From Alteromonas australica (lineage in GTDB: Bacteria > Pseudomonadota > Gammaproteobacteria > Enterobacterales > Alteromonadaceae): a DNA stretch of 64,000 bases. The DNA is taken from the NCBI RefSeq assembly GCF_000730385.1, contig NZ_CP008849.1, forward strand, positions 3,038,001 to 3,102,000, in the 5' to 3' direction. The notes under the pieces are model-generated. The model was not told where the DNA came from. It did no database searches and saw only the letters and a list, made by a program, of their open reading frames with translations. The position numbers and the translations under genes are program-made. Positions 7,056 through 19,717 of this stretch are shown here, piece by piece (position 1 is the first letter of the stretch; every line of letters begins with the position of its first letter).

Positions 7056-7466
7056 ATGAAAACTAAAGCAATGGCGTTAGCCCTATTATTATCTGTAGTG
7101 GGTTGTTCTGAGAGTAACGAAGACGCAAAAACAGACATGAAAAAAGAAATGGAAAAGGCTGGTGAAGCAACCGCTGAAACCTATGAAGGCGCAAAAGAAA
7201 AAACGGCAGACGCATGGGATGATACTAAAAATGCCACATCAGATGCTTATGAAGATGGTAAAGAAATGACCTCTGATGCCTATGAAGATGGCAAAGATAT
7301 GGCCTCTGATGCCTATGAAGATGGCAAAGATATGGCCTCTGATGCCTATGACAAAACCGCGGAAAAAACCGGTGAATGGAAAGACGCAGCAGCCCAAAAA
7401 GCCCACGAAGCCTGTGTGGCAATGAAAGAAAAGATGGGCGGCGACGTCAGTGAGTGTGACGATTAA
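7056..7466 (+). CDS. Repeat-bearing lipoprotein (LEA/apolipoprotein-like helices)
   Basis: 136 residues with a lipoprotein signal ending SVVGC (Cys at about residue 17). The mature part is extremely acidic/lysine-rich and built from 11-residue helical units, the clearest being SDAYEDGKDMA repeated three times with variants before and after (EGAKEKTADAWDDTK, SDAYDKTAEKTGEWKD). This periodicity resembles amphipathic LEA-type or stress-protective helices. Two cysteines (C126 and C134, in EACVAM and VSECDD) lie near the C terminus. It is likely anchored to the outer membrane facing the periplasm; function unknown. Ribosome binding site AAAGGAG is strong. Confidence 0.65.
   Translation: MKTKAMALALLLSVVGCSESNEDAKTDMKKEMEKAGEATAETYEGAKEKTADAWDDTKNATSDAYEDGKEMTSDAYEDGKDMASDAYEDGKDMASDAYDKTAEKTGEWKDAAAQKAHEACVAMKEKMGGDVSECDD
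7242..7340 (+). repeat. Three tandem 33-bp coding repeats
   Basis: Units at 7242-7274, 7275-7307 and 7308-7340. Units 2 and 3 are identical and unit 1 differs by a few bases; a partial fourth follows. The unit length of 33 keeps the reading frame and encodes 11 residues, so copy number can change without breaking the protein. Confidence 0.85.
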
Positions 7467-9703: not shown

Positions 9704-10608
9704 AATGGGGTCAGAGTACTTTTCTCACGAGCGTACGCGGCATCTTTTTCTTCCAGCTCTTTCTCACTGTCTATTAGACCAGTTTTAGCGGGTACAGGGT
9801 TGTAGATAGTTTTTAAATTGCCCATCTTAGTAAAAAGAAAACTCAAAAAGTAACTCATAAAGGTATGGCTCGTAAACATCGACTAGGCCCCGCTGGCTTT
9901 GCACAGCATGTCATTCAACGAGGAAATAATCGCTCTATATGCTTTGCCGATGAAACCGACTACATTGCATACGCCCATTGGTTAAAGAAGTTTTCGCTGC
10001 AATTTGACGTAGCTATTCACGCATGGGTTTTAATGACTAATCATGTGCATTTACTTTGCACGCCTAACTCAGATAATCGTGGTGTCAGCGCGATGATGCA
10101 ATCATTAGGGCGAATGTATGTAAGGTACTTCAACCATAAGTACAACCGCACCGGCACGTTATGGGAAGGGAGATTTAATTCTAGCTTGGTGAGCAGTGAA
10201 GAATATCTGCTTGCGGTTTACCGGTACATTGAACTTAACCCCGTGAGAGCCAATATGGTTTTATCACCAGCAGAATATAAATGGTCAAGCTATCGGATAA
10301 ATGCATTGGGTATTAAATCAATGCTATGCAGCCCGCACCCTGTTTACTTATCATTGGGGAAAACTGACTTTCGGCGATTAAAAGCTTACCGAACTCTGTT
10401 CAAAAACGACGTACCGCAATCGGTCATAGATAAAATTCAAACCAGCTCACGAAAAGAGTTAGCTTTAGGAAGTAAAAAATTCAAACACCACATAGAACAG
10501 CTAACTGGCAGTACATTAAAAAATGAAACACTCGGCCGACCCGCTAGCAATAATAGAATAGCTAAAACTTAAATATTCAGGTGCTCAATAATGTACTCTG
10601 ACCCCATT
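9704..10608 (+). mobile_element. RAYT unit: transposase gene bracketed by inverted palindrome arms
   Basis: A REP-associated tyrosine transposase gene lies between a left arm at 9704-9719 and a right arm at 10593-10608 that are exact inverted copies (16 bases) of the arm found all over the surrounding 40 kb. This is the classic arrangement of a RAYT with its cognate repeats. No target-site duplication is expected for HUH enzymes and none is seen. The unit sits between the MDR gene and recQ. Confidence 0.8.
9865..10572 (+). CDS. REP-associated tyrosine transposase (RAYT, Y1 HUH family)
   Basis: 235 residues of the IS200-like Y1 superfamily, REP-associated branch. MTNHVHLL (residues 57-64) is the HUH metal site with H60 and H62; GTLWEGRF (97-104) and YIELNPVRAN (121-130) are RAYT hallmarks, with Y121 the likely nucleophile. 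All key residues are present and the frame is intact, so the enzyme may be active. RAYTs nick single-stranded palindromes and are thought to spread REP elements rather than themselves. The C-terminal tail (about 150-235) is basic and probably contacts the repeat. The gene is single-copy in the window. Confidence 0.92.
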   Translation: MARKHRLGPAGFAQHVIQRGNNRSICFADETDYIAYAHWLKKFSLQFDVAIHAWVLMTNHVHLLCTPNSDNRGVSAMMQSLGRMYVRYFNHKYNRTGTLWEGRFNSSLVSSEEYLLAVYRYIELNPVRANMVLSPAEYKWSSYRINALGIKSMLCSPHPVYLSLGKTDFRRLKAYRTLFKNDVPQSVIDKIQTSSRKELALGSKKFKHHIEQLTGSTLKNETLGRPASNNRIAKT

Positions 10609-14129: not shown

Positions 14130-15305
14130 ATGAACATATTAATACTGGGAACATCCAATTCTATTTTGAAAAATGGTTATGTTAGTGGCTTGAAAAGAGC
14201 ACTCCCTAATGCGTCATGGACCAGCTTATCTTCAGGTGCTTCACCAGGCATACAGTTTTCTAAATATGCCAAGATGGACTTCACTAGCTATGATTTAGTG
14301 GTGCTGGATTCTGTACCAAATGATGAACAATATGCATTACAAACGCCGGGTTACTCTTATAGCAATCAAAATAAGCGTATTCTGCTTGAAGTCGTTTCAA
14401 CCATCTCCTCGCAAACCAAACTAATTGTTCTAGGAATTGCGATTCGCGATTTCTTTGCAAAGCCATCCGCTATTTATACTGACAGAGAAAACCTTGCCAA
14501 TAACATGGGCGCTCAGTTTATCGATTTTTCATCGCTGCTTAAGGTTTATCAATATTTATATGACGACGTGTATTCGAATCACCCCGCACACCCTAAAGAT
14601 GAAATATCAAATAAAATAGGTTATTACCTAGGTGTGGCTATTAGTCATCACTATGATCACATAACAAACGGAGCTGAGTGTGTAGATTACAGTAAGAACT
14701 TTGAGATAGTTTCAACCCATCTTAATGAAGGCGAAATAAGAAACTATAAAAATTCATTAACTGAAGCACAATATCTGGAGTGTGAAAAAGGCCACACTGT
14801 GTCGATATCCACACAAAAGAAGTTAATTGGCTTTTTTGTAAACGGGTTTCAAACAAATACGTTCATTCAACTTACGGCCGACAACGGTGCAGTTCTCACC
14901 GTTCCGTTACTCTATAAACGAATGGAAAAGGGTTTTCTCAACCTATTTGCTCCCTTAGCGACATTTCAAACAATTAAAACGTTAACGGTGGTTGATCAAT
15001 ATGAGGGGGTTCTTCAATTTAAGCCAAGAATGACAACAGGAAAAAGAGATATCCACACGCCAAAATTGCAATTAGGCAGCTTTATTCATTGGGACAGTGA
15101 AGACGAAAGCAACTTAACCGCATATAACAAAGTGAGTAACTCCAATCATTTAGTGCTAAGTGATACTGTAAAAAACAGCGTTACAGATGAAGTATTGAAG
15201 GCTATACAGGCTTCATACACACAAAGTTCCGGATTGACCAAAATACGATACTTTTTCAAATTACTCCGTTTTAAACACCGGTTTAAGGTCACTTCACTGA
15301 AATAA
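14130..15305 (+). CDS. SGNH-hydrolase-like protein, unknown substrate
   Basis: 391 residues, soluble. It opens with NILILGTSNSI, like block I of SGNH/GDSL hydrolases (Ser near residue 9 or 11), has DLVVLDSVPND in the middle, and HPAHPKDEISNKIGYYLG (about residues 151-168), which resembles the catalytic Asp/His block V. A beta-rich C-terminal half (about 210-330) may bind carbohydrate. Related proteins modify or recognise surface polysaccharide, but I cannot name a family with certainty. The stop codon overlaps palindrome 7, which separates it from the borosin operon downstream. Confidence 0.55.
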   Translation: MNILILGTSNSILKNGYVSGLKRALPNASWTSLSSGASPGIQFSKYAKMDFTSYDLVVLDSVPNDEQYALQTPGYSYSNQNKRILLEVVSTISSQTKLIVLGIAIRDFFAKPSAIYTDRENLANNMGAQFIDFSSLLKVYQYLYDDVYSNHPAHPKDEISNKIGYYLGVAISHHYDHITNGAECVDYSKNFEIVSTHLNEGEIRNYKNSLTEAQYLECEKGHTVSISTQKKLIGFFVNGFQTNTFIQLTADNGAVLTVPLLYKRMEKGFLNLFAPLATFQTIKTLTVVDQYEGVLQFKPRMTTGKRDIHTPKLQLGSFIHWDSEDESNLTAYNKVSNSNHLVLSDTVKNSVTDEVLKAIQASYTQSSGLTKIRYFFKLLRFKHRFKVTSLK

Positions 15306-15343
15306 TGGGGTCAGAGTACTTTTTAATTAACTCTGACCCCATT
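15304..15343. repeat. REP-like palindrome 7 abutting a stop codon
   Basis: Arms 15304-15317 and 15330-15343 (14 bp perfect) overlapping the TAA of the SGNH-like gene. It can fold into a hairpin that would insulate the next operon. Confidence 0.9.
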
Positions 15344-15428
15344 ATTCTCAACTTGTCGGCATAGTAAATAGTTGAAATCTATTTTATAGTGAATCTCAGA
15401 TTAAGCGTGGTTATTGGTTAAGGAAATA

Positions 15429-16256
15429 ATGGACACCGCCAAAAAAGGACAGTTGATTGTTGTGGGCACAGGGATTAGTGTGGCAGGGCAAATGACATTA
15501 GCTGCAAAAAGCCACATCGAAAACGCTGACATCGTCTTCATGGGTATCATGAATAAAGTTGGCGAACATGCTGTCAAAAACCTCAATCCTAACAGTATTT
15601 CATTGGATGACCTCTACCAAGAGGGTAAATCACGTGCTGTCACTTATGACCAAATGGCCGACCGTATTGTGCAGGCTGTATCTGATGGACACAAAGTATG
15701 CGTGGCATTCTATGGCCACCCCGGCGTTTTCGTCACTCCTTCTCACGAGGCTATTCGCAGGGTAAGAGAGCTTGGTCTTAACGCTCAAATGCTGCCGGGC
15801 GTGTCAGCGGAAGATTGTTTAATTGCTGACTTAGGCATAGACCCATCGCGCTTTGGCTGTCAGTCTTATGAAGCCACGCAATTTTTGTTTCGCGATTACC
15901 GCATCGACCCTTATATGACGCAAATCATATGGCAAATAGGCTTAGCGGGAGAAGCATCGTTAAGCGTGCTAGATGCCACGCACAATCAGCCAGGACTTGT
16001 GATGTTGGCAGATATCCTGCGCGAGCATTACCCCGACAATCATGAGCTTATTATCTACGAAGCGGCAACCTTGCCTATCTGCGAGCCCAAAATTCAAAAG
16101 ATTCTGCTTAGCGAGTTAACGCTCGCCAAACTTACATTGATTTCCACTCTGGTTGTTCCGTCGCTAGGCTTGCCAGAGTACCGACAGGACCGTTTAGCCA
16201 AGTTAGGTTTAACGGAACAACAAGTGATTAATTATAGAAACCCAAGCATAAACTAA
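15429..16256 (+). CDS. Split borosin alpha-N-methyltransferase (SonM-like)
   Basis: 275 residues of the tetrapyrrole-methylase (SAM-dependent) fold. LIVVGTGISVAGQMTLAA is the first SAM-contact strand, FYGHPGVFV (residues 94-102) the family's glycine loop, and MLPGVSAEDCLIADLGIDP the third motif. Tyr63, Arg69 and Tyr73 have exactly the Tyr-x5-Arg-x3-Tyr spacing of the catalytic residues Y66, R72 and Y76 of the fungal borosin enzyme OphMA, and the residues between are typical (GKSRAVTYDQM). Borosin enzymes methylate backbone amide nitrogens of a peptide; in the split bacterial form, known from Shewanella, the substrate is a separate protein. That fits the next gene, 12 bp downstream. The ATG at 15429 is preferred over a TTG at 15414 because AAGGA lies 4 bases upstream. 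Confidence 0.88.
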   Translation: MDTAKKGQLIVVGTGISVAGQMTLAAKSHIENADIVFMGIMNKVGEHAVKNLNPNSISLDDLYQEGKSRAVTYDQMADRIVQAVSDGHKVCVAFYGHPGVFVTPSHEAIRRVRELGLNAQMLPGVSAEDCLIADLGIDPSRFGCQSYEATQFLFRDYRIDPYMTQIIWQIGLAGEASLSVLDATHNQPGLVMLADILREHYPDNHELIIYEAATLPICEPKIQKILLSELTLAKLTLISTLVVPSLGLPEYRQDRLAKLGLTEQQVINYRNPSIN

Positions 16257-16268
16257 CAGGAAATAAAA

Positions 16269-16472
16269 ATGGCAAAATCGATAGTAGACTTCTTAGTAGA
16301 ATTAGACACAAACAGTAAATTGATGGAAGCGTATAAAAAAGATCCCGTAGGAATTGCTGCCGACTATGGCCTATCGGATGAAGAACTAAAACTGATTGAA
16401 AACAAAGATTGGGACGAAGTAGCAAAACGCTTTGACGATACAAGTAAAGCCATTCGTGTTGTTAACTATTAG
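16269..16472 (+). CDS. Split borosin precursor peptide (SonA-like)
   Basis: 67 residues. Residues 4-55 form a small all-helical domain (VDFLVELDTNSKLMEAYKKD, then GIAADYGLSDEELKLIENKD) similar in layout to the borosin-binding domain of Shewanella SonA: a D-F-x3-L start, LMExYKxxP, YGLSDEEL. The short tail DDTSKAIRVVNY (56-67) is the likely core; I62, V64 and V65 are candidate sites of backbone N-methylation, by analogy with the hydrophobic targets in known borosins. There is no signal peptide and no obvious protease site. The ribosome binding site AGGAAA is good, and the gene is 12 bp after its methyltransferase. Confidence 0.85.
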   Translation: MAKSIVDFLVELDTNSKLMEAYKKDPVGIAADYGLSDEELKLIENKDWDEVAKRFDDTSKAIRVVNY

Positions 16473-16489: not shown

Positions 16490-19400
16490 ATGATGCGATG
16501 TATCTGCCGTAACATAAATGCCATCTTTTTTCTGGTGGCATTGCCCCTGCTCGCCTTTCAGGCGCTAGCAGATACCGCTTCCTATCCCCTCAGTTTACTA
16601 GACGGGCTAAGAGATCGAATTCGCGAAAACGACTCCTCGGTTGACGACACACTTTCAAAGTTAGAAGACTTCTTTGTCAACAACACCAACGACTTTGAAC
16701 AGGCGCGCTATTTAAACCTAAAATCCTACCACCACATTCTAAAACAGAATTACCTGGCAGGTTACGAACTCCTTCTAGAGGCTCGTGAGTTTGCAAATGC
16801 CAGCAATAACATACTGGCTCTAGCCGAATCCTATCGATTAGAAGGATTAATTTTAGATTTCTCTGGCGAGCACGCGAATGCGTTAGAAGCATTAAACCGC
16901 TCTTTGGAACTATACAATAAAGTGCAAAGTTCGAGGGTATTGCTGGTATACAGTGGTATGGGGAATGTCTACATGTCGCTGAAAGACTATGAACAAATGT
17001 TGACGTTCGGACAGCAATACCTGTCTACCGCCCAACGTTTTCATAGCCGTCAAGATGAAGGTATTGCGTATTTTTTCCAGGGATACACACAAAAGAGGTT
17101 GGGAAACTACCAAGAAGCCAAAGTTAACTTATTACTTGCCGACAACCTGTTAAGCGAGGTTCAGTATCCCTTTATGGGCATTGTTTATAGTGCCATGGCA
17201 GACCTTCACATTGCTCAGGGCAATTTAAACGAGGCATTGAAAAAGCTAAATCAAGCAGCCGAAGTAGATCGTCAAGTTGGCTTTCGGTACAACGAAGGCA
17301 CTTACCTACTTCAACTAGCCGAGATATATAGGCAGAGAGGTGAGAACGAACTCGCCATTGCGGAACTAGAAGCCGGGCTAAATAAAACGGCTATTCAAAA
17401 CGACAAAGTCGTACTTTTAGACCTGCTAGAACAGTTGATTACTCTCTATGAAGCGGCAGATAATTATCGCATGGCACTCAACTATGCAAAGCAATATAGA
17501 GAAGTGTATACACAAAGTTTCAACGAACAACAGTCAAGACTGCTGGCATTGAATCGCGTACGTCTAGCGATATCCGAAAAAGAAGAAACGATAGAGTTGC
17601 TGGAAAAAGACAACCAGCTAAAAGAGCAGCGCAATCTCATTCAACAAAAGCAAAACACTTTCCAGCTGTATTTTATCGGATGCGTTATTTTGTCTTTGGT
17701 ATTAGTTATTGGCCTTTTAATGCGCACCAGGCAACAGCGTAAAGCGCTGGATAATCTTACGCAAGATTTGCAAAAAGCCACCAAAGCTAAGTCTGACTTT
17801 CTTGCTCGTATGAGCCATGAAATACGTACGCCATTAAATGCTATTATCGGTCTTACCAAGCTTTCACAGCGTGCTGCAGAAAATCAAGAGCAGCAAACCA
17901 ACCTTATACAAATAGAAGGGGCATCGCAAACGCTCCTCGCCATCATCAAAGATATTCTAGACTTTTCAAAAATCGAAGCCGGAAAGTTAGATATAGAGTC
18001 GACCCAATTTAATTTAGATGCCTTGGTGAATCAGACCATTCGTCTTCATTTAGCCCGCGCGGATGAAAAGCACATAGAGCTCATTCAACACATTGCCAGA
18101 GATGTGCCGCATAACTTAGTTGGCGACCCCCTGCGAATTCAACAAGTATTAAGTAATTTGCTAAGTAACGCGTTAAAGTTTACGGAAGATGGGCTAGTTT
18201 CCGTGAGCGTGAGATGTACAAAAGAAGAACAAAATATTCAGCTTGAATTTGAAGTCAAAGACACGGGAATAGGCTTGAGTAGTAAACAAAAAGCCAAACT
18301 GTTCAAGCCCTTTAACCAAGGTGACGAGTCTATCTCACGTCGCTTCGGTGGTACCGGCTTGGGGCTGGCAATTTGTAAGCAGCTCACCACTTTAATGGGT
18401 GGAGACATCTGGGTAGAAAGCCAACTAGGAAAAGGCGCAAGTTTTCATTTCACGGTTAATGTGAAGCAAGATCCTGCGCAGCAGATTGTCTCACCATCTA
18501 TGCAACTGTCAGCGCTTAAGGTGCTGATTGCTGATGACATCAGTATGTCTCGCGAAGCTATTACCGAAGCCTTATCCATGGCGAATATTCACGCCGACAA
18601 AGCCACCGGCGGTAAAGAAGCGGTGACGAGAGTGCGTGAGGCCGTCACCAGTAACCACCCCTATGATGTTCTTATATTAGACTGGAATATGCCCGATATA
18701 GATGGTTTGGAAGTGGCTGCCATCATTAACCAGGAGTTTCCAAATAAACAGCCAAAGGTGATTATGCTTTATGCCTTTGAGTCGCCACATATGCGTGAAC
18801 AAGCGAACCAACTAGGCATTCACACCTTTATTAAAAAGCCTTTTGGTAGCAGCGACTTAGTCAACAAGCTTCAAGAGCTCTGCCTTACGGTGAAGAGTAA
18901 TGTAAAAGCAGCAGACACTATTCAGGTACCCGATCTCACTGGCATAAAAATTCTATTTGCCGAAGATAACGCACTGAATCAGAAGGTAGCACTGGGTTTG
19001 TTAACCGATACTCATGCTACCATTAGCGTTGTCAATAATGGGTTAGAGGCGTTAAAGGCGCTACGCGAAGATAGCACATTCGATGTGGTATTGATGGATA
19101 TTCAGATGCCCATCATGGATGGTTTAACCGCAGCAAAACGCATTCGCGAAGAATTGAAACTCACTCTTCCAATTATTGCGATGACCGCCCACGCTATGCA
19201 GCAAGATATAGATAAGAGCCATGCGGCAGGAATGGATGGGCATATCAATAAGCCTGTGGACCCAAATCGATTTTTCGATGTGCTCGTTGAAGTGCTAAAC
19301 GATCAAAAGTTACATTCAATACCCAGCAACGAAGCGCCATTAGGTTTAGCCTCTTCTGATGCGTTTGTGCCTAATTCCCTTAGCTTTATTGATAAAAAGC

Positions 19401-19717
19401 AAGCGATGCAGGCATTGCTAAATGATGAATCCCTGTATACAGAATTGACTAACGACTTTGTAGCACTCGGCCCCGAATTACATGCGCTTCGCACTGCCAT
19501 TGACGAAAAAGATTTCTCGTCAATATTAAGGATTGCACATATTTACACTACAGCGCTTAAATACATCGGGGCTTATGGGTTAGCTGAGCTTGCGAGGTCA
19601 ATAGAGTTAACCATCCAACAAAACGAACAAGACAAGGTTGAAGGCTTTTTCGTGCAGTTAAATCTATTACATAGCGAGCTCACTAAAATGAACGCAAAAT
19701 TCGAGCAACAAAGATAG
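16490..19717 (+). CDS. TPR-sensor hybrid histidine kinase linked to borosin genes
   Basis: 1075 residues. An N-terminal signal/anchor (to about 28) is followed by a periplasmic array of TPR-type repeats (about 35-370), a coiled coil, a transmembrane helix (about 390-410), a HisKA domain with H443 in MSHEIRTPLNA, an ATPase domain (N box NLLSNALKF, G boxes DTGIGLS and GGTGLGLAI), a receiver with D731, a second receiver with D870 (MDIQMPIMDG), and a C-terminal HPt-like domain with H1017. The HPt lacks the usual H-x-LKG motif (here AHIYTTALKYIGA). The first receiver sequence ADDISMS has a less canonical acid pair. It starts 17 bp after the precursor gene, so it is probably in the same operon. Confidence 0.88.
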   Translation: MMRCICRNINAIFFLVALPLLAFQALADTASYPLSLLDGLRDRIRENDSSVDDTLSKLEDFFVNNTNDFEQARYLNLKSYHHILKQNYLAGYELLLEAREFANASNNILALAESYRLEGLILDFSGEHANALEALNRSLELYNKVQSSRVLLVYSGMGNVYMSLKDYEQMLTFGQQYLSTAQRFHSRQDEGIAYFFQGYTQKRLGNYQEAKVNLLLADNLLSEVQYPFMGIVYSAMADLHIAQGNLNEALKKLNQAAEVDRQVGFRYNEGTYLLQLAEIYRQRGENELAIAELEAGLNKTAIQNDKVVLLDLLEQLITLYEAADNYRMALNYAKQYREVYTQSFNEQQSRLLALNRVRLAISEKEETIELLEKDNQLKEQRNLIQQKQNTFQLYFIGCVILSLVLVIGLLMRTRQQRKALDNLTQDLQKATKAKSDFLARMSHEIRTPLNAIIGLTKLSQRAAENQEQQTNLIQIEGASQTLLAIIKDILDFSKIEAGKLDIESTQFNLDALVNQTIRLHLARADEKHIELIQHIARDVPHNLVGDPLRIQQVLSNLLSNALKFTEDGLVSVSVRCTKEEQNIQLEFEVKDTGIGLSSKQKAKLFKPFNQGDESISRRFGGTGLGLAICKQLTTLMGGDIWVESQLGKGASFHFTVNVKQDPAQQIVSPSMQLSALKVLIADDISMSREAITEALSMANIHADKATGGKEAVTRVREAVTSNHPYDVLILDWNMPDIDGLEVAAIINQEFPNKQPKVIMLYAFESPHMREQANQLGIHTFIKKPFGSSDLVNKLQELCLTVKSNVKAADTIQVPDLTGIKILFAEDNALNQKVALGLLTDTHATISVVNNGLEALKALREDSTFDVVLMDIQMPIMDGLTAAKRIREELKLTLPIIAMTAHAMQQDIDKSHAAGMDGHINKPVDPNRFFDVLVEVLNDQKLHSIPSNEAPLGLASSDAFVPNSLSFIDKKQAMQALLNDESLYTELTNDFVALGPELHALRTAIDEKDFSSILRIAHIYTTALKYIGAYGLAELARSIELTIQQNEQDKVEGFFVQLNLLHSELTKMNAKFEQQR

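Follow-up and report, generated by a model that had tools for sequence, protein, structure and literature searches.

A borosin pair and a sensor kinase share one operon

Three adjacent genes in the window (the whole stretch of 64,000 nucleotides analysed here) encode a SonM-like methyltransferase, a SonA-like precursor and a TPR hybrid histidine kinase, and they form one operon (Table 1). Read directly from the open reading frames, the enzyme and precursor genes are 12 bp apart, and a further 17 bp separates the precursor gene from the kinase gene. The initial annotation had delimited the locus as 15429-16472; the pair does lie there, but the operon runs on through the kinase gene, which had been overlooked. 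No dedicated protease, exporter or immunity gene was found in the operon.

Table 1 Features of the borosin operon and of the sequence upstream of it
Feature	Position	Strand	Basis and remarks
REP-like inverted repeat GGGGTCAGAGTA...ACTCTGACCCC	15307..15340		Repeated many times in the window
Probable operon promoter, TAGTAA - 17 bp - TATAGT	15362..15390	+	Conserved block; -35 and -10 boxes inferred
Borosin alpha-N-methyltransferase, SonM-like, 275 aa, Y63/R69/Y73/Y95	15429..16256	+	Homology and alignment; ATG at 15429, stop ending at 16256
SonA-like borosin precursor on a gene of its own, 67 aa, with a five-helix borosin-binding domain (about 1-57), a linker and a C-terminal core (about 62-67, IRVVNY)	16269..16472	+	Profile, predicted fold and alignment
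Hybrid histidine kinase with a TPR sensor (1075 aa), encoded by the conserved third operon gene	16490..19717	+	Domain search, synteny and model

An alignment of 16 window-type loci shows the probable promoter block conserved 5' of the methyltransferase in every one; in G013, a genome without the methyltransferase and the precursor, it stands before the kinase. A scan for consensus promoters and terminators at the operon gave nothing above shuffled sequences and did not call this block. The upstream gene at 14130-15305 was rejected as a part of the cluster because no homologue of it adjoins the enzyme in relatives. The inverted repeat is probably outside the operon. Its 12-mer GGGGTCAGAGTA, with up to one mismatch, occurs 29 times in the window against 0.11 expected copies, mostly as inverted pairs, from 7523 to 59553, and an IS200-like (Y1_Tnp) transposase, probably of the REP-associated type, is encoded between copies at 9865-10572.

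The methyltransferase and its precursor

SonM of Shewanella oneidensis is a close relative of the 275-aa protein (216 bits, E 7e-63, approximately 46-50% identity), while OphMA matches it at an E-value of about 1e-50, with OphMA-type enzymes scoring about 175-180 bits. Tyr63, Arg69 and Tyr73, which the initial annotation had singled out, do occur at the spacing that it gave for OphMA (6 and 4 residues), and together with Tyr95 they are invariant in an alignment of 12 sequences reaching down to 39% identity. By alignment, the four residues correspond to Y58, R67, Y71 and Y93 of SonM, mutation of which slows methylation (PMC8429565); the active-site loop of SonM is three residues longer than the one here (Y58/R67/Y71 vs Y63/R69/Y73). 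Furthermore, the motif EAATLPI is the counterpart of EAANLPI, the SonM loop gripped by the SonA domain. OphMA and dbOphMA share the methyltransferase fold and the Tyr/Arg/Tyr spacing, but the fungal precursor is fused to its enzyme, whereas it is separate here.

Pfam TP_methylase scores 82 bits on the enzyme; yet it is highly improbable that we are dealing with an ordinary tetrapyrrole methylase next to an unrelated small helical protein, given that the SonM and OphMA scores far exceed those of any cobalamin or siroheme enzyme, that the catalytic set is conserved, and that the small protein is SonA-like and always lies 3' of the enzyme in the close clade. Grouping with cobalamin or siroheme methylases, the outcome that would have spoken against the initial reading, was rejected: the best tetrapyrrole-type NCBIfam model reached 52 bits, where its cut-off is 525, and all other NCBIfam matches also fell far under their curated cut-offs. 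Two further candidates were set aside, namely a defence function, for which PADLOC gave zero matches to either the enzyme or the precursor, and a viral origin, with a relative on just one viral contig (L152, IMGVR_UViG_2907749690_000003, which encodes a borosin-type methyltransferase at 39% identity).

The second gene encodes the 67-residue helical peptide with a short hydrophobic tail described initially, and its C-terminal tail reads DDTSKAIRVVNY. A single-sequence search related it to SonA at E 3e-5, and a 29-sequence profile of the precursor searched against solved structures returned SonA as the sole match below E 0.01, at about 1e-10. In the predicted model (moderate pLDDT of 70), five helices at residues 5-14, 16-24, 26-33, 37-44 and 48-57 precede a low-confidence tail. 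With this model, Foldseek placed SonA chains at ranks 1-29 and fungal borosin clasps after them, with weak E-values (0.12 at best).

A homologue of SonM and OphMA, the Tyr/Arg/Tyr set plus Y95, separate adjacent genes and an N-terminal five-helix domain thus all occur at 15429-16472, and they support its assignment to the type IV split borosins, with methylation of the tail being predicted from the sequence. The initial proposal of a split borosin pair in an Alteromonas-like host is upheld by these searches: both proteins group with borosins in the profile comparison that it had suggested, and the host agrees with the named relatives. Such split pairs have been reported as widespread in bacteria (PMC11285071), and the pair itself adds another borosin of an already described sort.

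The limits of the core were set by alignment to L63 and I65, the methylated residues of SonA (PMC8429565); V64 stands opposite L63 and N66 opposite I65 without gaps. The SonA core is YLIIS with a further tail to residue 71, whereas the core here is IRVVNY and ends at residue 67. Among 18 window-type loci from 18 species, R63 and Y67 are unchanging, V and I alone occur at positions 64-65, and codons 62-67 have a pN of 0.157 against a pS of 0.752. The core is under purifying selection, like the rest of the precursor, and its conservation fits a molecule having one specific partner. The SonA tail itself (YQSYLIISCGIGD) was read in L217, the locus of a 99% SonM relative, which encodes two tandem SonA-like precursors, the first with a different, longer tail (SFLLVNHGNRSEY...).

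A kinase with a probably periplasmic TPR sensor

The kinase comprises a TPR superhelix at about residues 40-350, HisKA (433-498) and HATPase (545-658) domains, two receiver domains and an Hpt domain (996-1060). A putative signal sequence at the N-terminus and a putative transmembrane helix at about 391-411 were read from its sequence, and because the TPR domain lies between them it is probably periplasmic, i.e., outside the inner membrane. The sensor was modelled confidently as a TPR superhelix (pLDDT 87.5), and the structures closest to the model are peptide-binding TPR proteins, with LGN followed by Rap and NprR, and PlcR lower. As TPR folds are common, this likeness permits peptide binding but reveals no ligand. 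The RRNPP receptors (Rap, NprR and PlcR) have a superhelix of a shape similar to that of the modelled sensor (Z about 24), but they are cytosolic, Gram-positive and bind plain peptides, whereas the TPR domain here belongs to a membrane kinase and is probably periplasmic, and the comparison does not support common membership.

Conservation of the pairing within and beyond the genus

A borosin enzyme is present in 53 of 60 species of the genus. The order enzyme-precursor-kinase was found at all 25 window-type loci, comprising 19 of 19 in the close clade (79-86% identity) and 6 of 6 in the 50%-identity clade. The kinase sensor accompanied the window-type enzyme in 25 of 25 genomes and occurred in 3 of the 35 genomes without it (Fisher 6e-14, uncorrected for relatedness). 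Within the same genus, loci of the roughly 40% clade have a TPR-GGDEF protein in place of the kinase.

Beyond the genus, we considered the 158 loci with enough flanking sequence, which come from proteobacteria and other phyla and include some near-duplicates. A kinase or GGDEF protein was encoded downstream at 124 and upstream at 9 of them (133/158), and neither was found at the remaining 25, many of which lie outside gammaproteobacteria (e.g., cyanobacteria and acidobacteria). Such a neighbour accompanied 37 of the 41 enzymes in the sample of loci from the order, and of 50 neighbours searched with Pfam, 34 had a GGDEF domain and 9-10 had kinase domains. Given the approximately 96 GGDEF or HisKA genes in this 4.3-Mb genome (about 50 GGDEF and 46 HisKA matches), the chance expectation per neighbour is, by a rough estimate, about 1-3%. 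The TPR-GGDEF gene also adjoins the enzyme in SonM relatives, including the 99% SonM locus. In proteobacterial split borosins, SonM/SonA among them, the pair nearly always has beside it a TPR membrane sensor whose output is either GGDEF or a kinase. We consider it very probable that the borosin pair at our locus is functionally tied to the TPR hybrid histidine kinase.

In the FastTree enzyme tree, the window enzyme falls inside a group of 28 rows that are all of the kinase type. The three output labels require 10 changes on this tree vs 57 in shuffles, so the output type is passed on by descent, with occasional switches. The SonM-SonA system (PMC8429565) is alike in its separate enzyme and precursor, five-helix binding domain, Tyr-Arg-Tyr set and downstream TPR signalling protein, but its linked sensor has a GGDEF output instead of a hybrid histidine kinase. 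A GGDEF domain is named for one borosin type in a figure legend of PMC11395268, so that a link between GGDEF and borosins appears to be at least partly known in print. Outside the main split-borosin surveys, our literature search found no paper that connects borosins with a TPR receptor or a histidine kinase.

Some clusters in other Alteromonas and in Shewanella have acidic C-terminal cores and a linked pepsin-like protease. They keep the order enzyme-precursor-TPR sensor but differ from the window in their GGDEF output, their cores and the frequent presence of pepsin-like protease and GNAT acetyltransferase genes. In such acidic-core clusters, a PF00026-type aspartic protease gene was observed near the borosin enzyme at L032, L034, L040, L047, L049, L071, L197-L199, L202, L208, L211, L212 and L231. 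PF00026 was detected in 10 of 60 genomes of the genus, there neighbouring a more distantly related borosin enzyme, and it was not found in the genome studied here; a pepsin-like protease was therefore rejected as the maturation enzyme of this system.

Natural losses of the enzyme and precursor

Three genomes have the kinase sensor without the pair. G033 and G055 have in common a deletion of approximately 970 bp that takes out the enzyme together with most of the precursor but spares the kinase, and the first codons of the enzyme are fused in-frame to precursor residues 49-67, i.e., the linker and core. The fusion frame can be seen before an intact kinase at about 7338-7460 (reversed) of L162 and in L163. 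In G013, both the enzyme and the precursor are absent from the locus and the kinase is intact. No other borosin enzyme was found in these three genomes at E 1e-20. The dN/dS of the kinase is about 0.21 between G033 and G055 and 0.10-0.14 to their enzyme-bearing relative, the values of a gene still under constraint, perhaps in relaxed form. As all three genomes retain the kinase, it can be useful without a peptide of its own, which fits either the sensing of peptide made by others or a second role of the kinase.

A possible signalling role for the methylated peptide

To our knowledge, few mature bacterial borosin products are known. The conserved association of the pair with a TPR kinase or diguanylate cyclase that resembles a receptor leads to a testable claim, namely that the peptide is the ligand of the receptor. 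The operon shared with a receptor kinase suggests, without proving it, that the peptide is a signal. Of the purposes considered, signalling seems the most probable to us, and we assign a probability of about 0.45 to the methylated peptide being the ligand of the adjoining TPR kinase. We infer that the SonM-like enzyme would bind the precursor through the five-helix domain and methylate backbone amides near its C-terminus, in a core of about IRVVNY. A protease would then free a short methylated peptide, which would reach the periplasm or the medium and might there be sensed by the periplasmic TPR domain, driving the phosphorelay.

Instead, the product of the pair could be a bioactive peptide for secretion, with an antimicrobial or metal-related role, and the kinase would just control production or sense an unrelated cue. 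The borosins omphalotin and gymnopeptides are indeed bioactive natural products (PMC8429565), and the kinase occurs without the pair in three relatives. Nevertheless, the operon has neither exporter nor immunity gene, the core is strongly conserved over 18 species, unlike many diversifying toxins, and the TPR sensor type persists although the output varies (GGDEF or kinase). We regard this explanation as rather unlikely, although it is the stronger of the two that compete with a ligand role.

An intracellular role of the precursor, which, methylated or not, would regulate the kinase or another partner without any free peptide being released, seems less probable still. It would account for an operon with no dedicated protease or exporter in a genome lacking PF00026, and for the small frame, carrying only the precursor tail, that G033 and G055 retain beside the kinase. 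The probable periplasmic location of the TPR domain, between the putative signal sequence and transmembrane helix, argues against it, as does the pepsin-like protease encoded beside the enzyme in several relatives.

Returning to the ligand reading, a generalization can be proposed a little more tentatively: proteobacterial split borosins may be backbone-methylated peptide signals, each sensed by an adjacent TPR membrane receptor whose outputs, diguanylate cyclase or hybrid kinase, are interchangeable, and receptor-only species possibly eavesdrop on their neighbours. In Gram-negative bacteria, backbone methylation could make a peptide signal stable to proteases and able to cross membranes.

A variant of the gene arrangement was observed at L082 and L086, from Algicola-like and Alteromonadaceae MAGs, where two tandem borosin methyltransferases are followed by a 1195-aa kinase.
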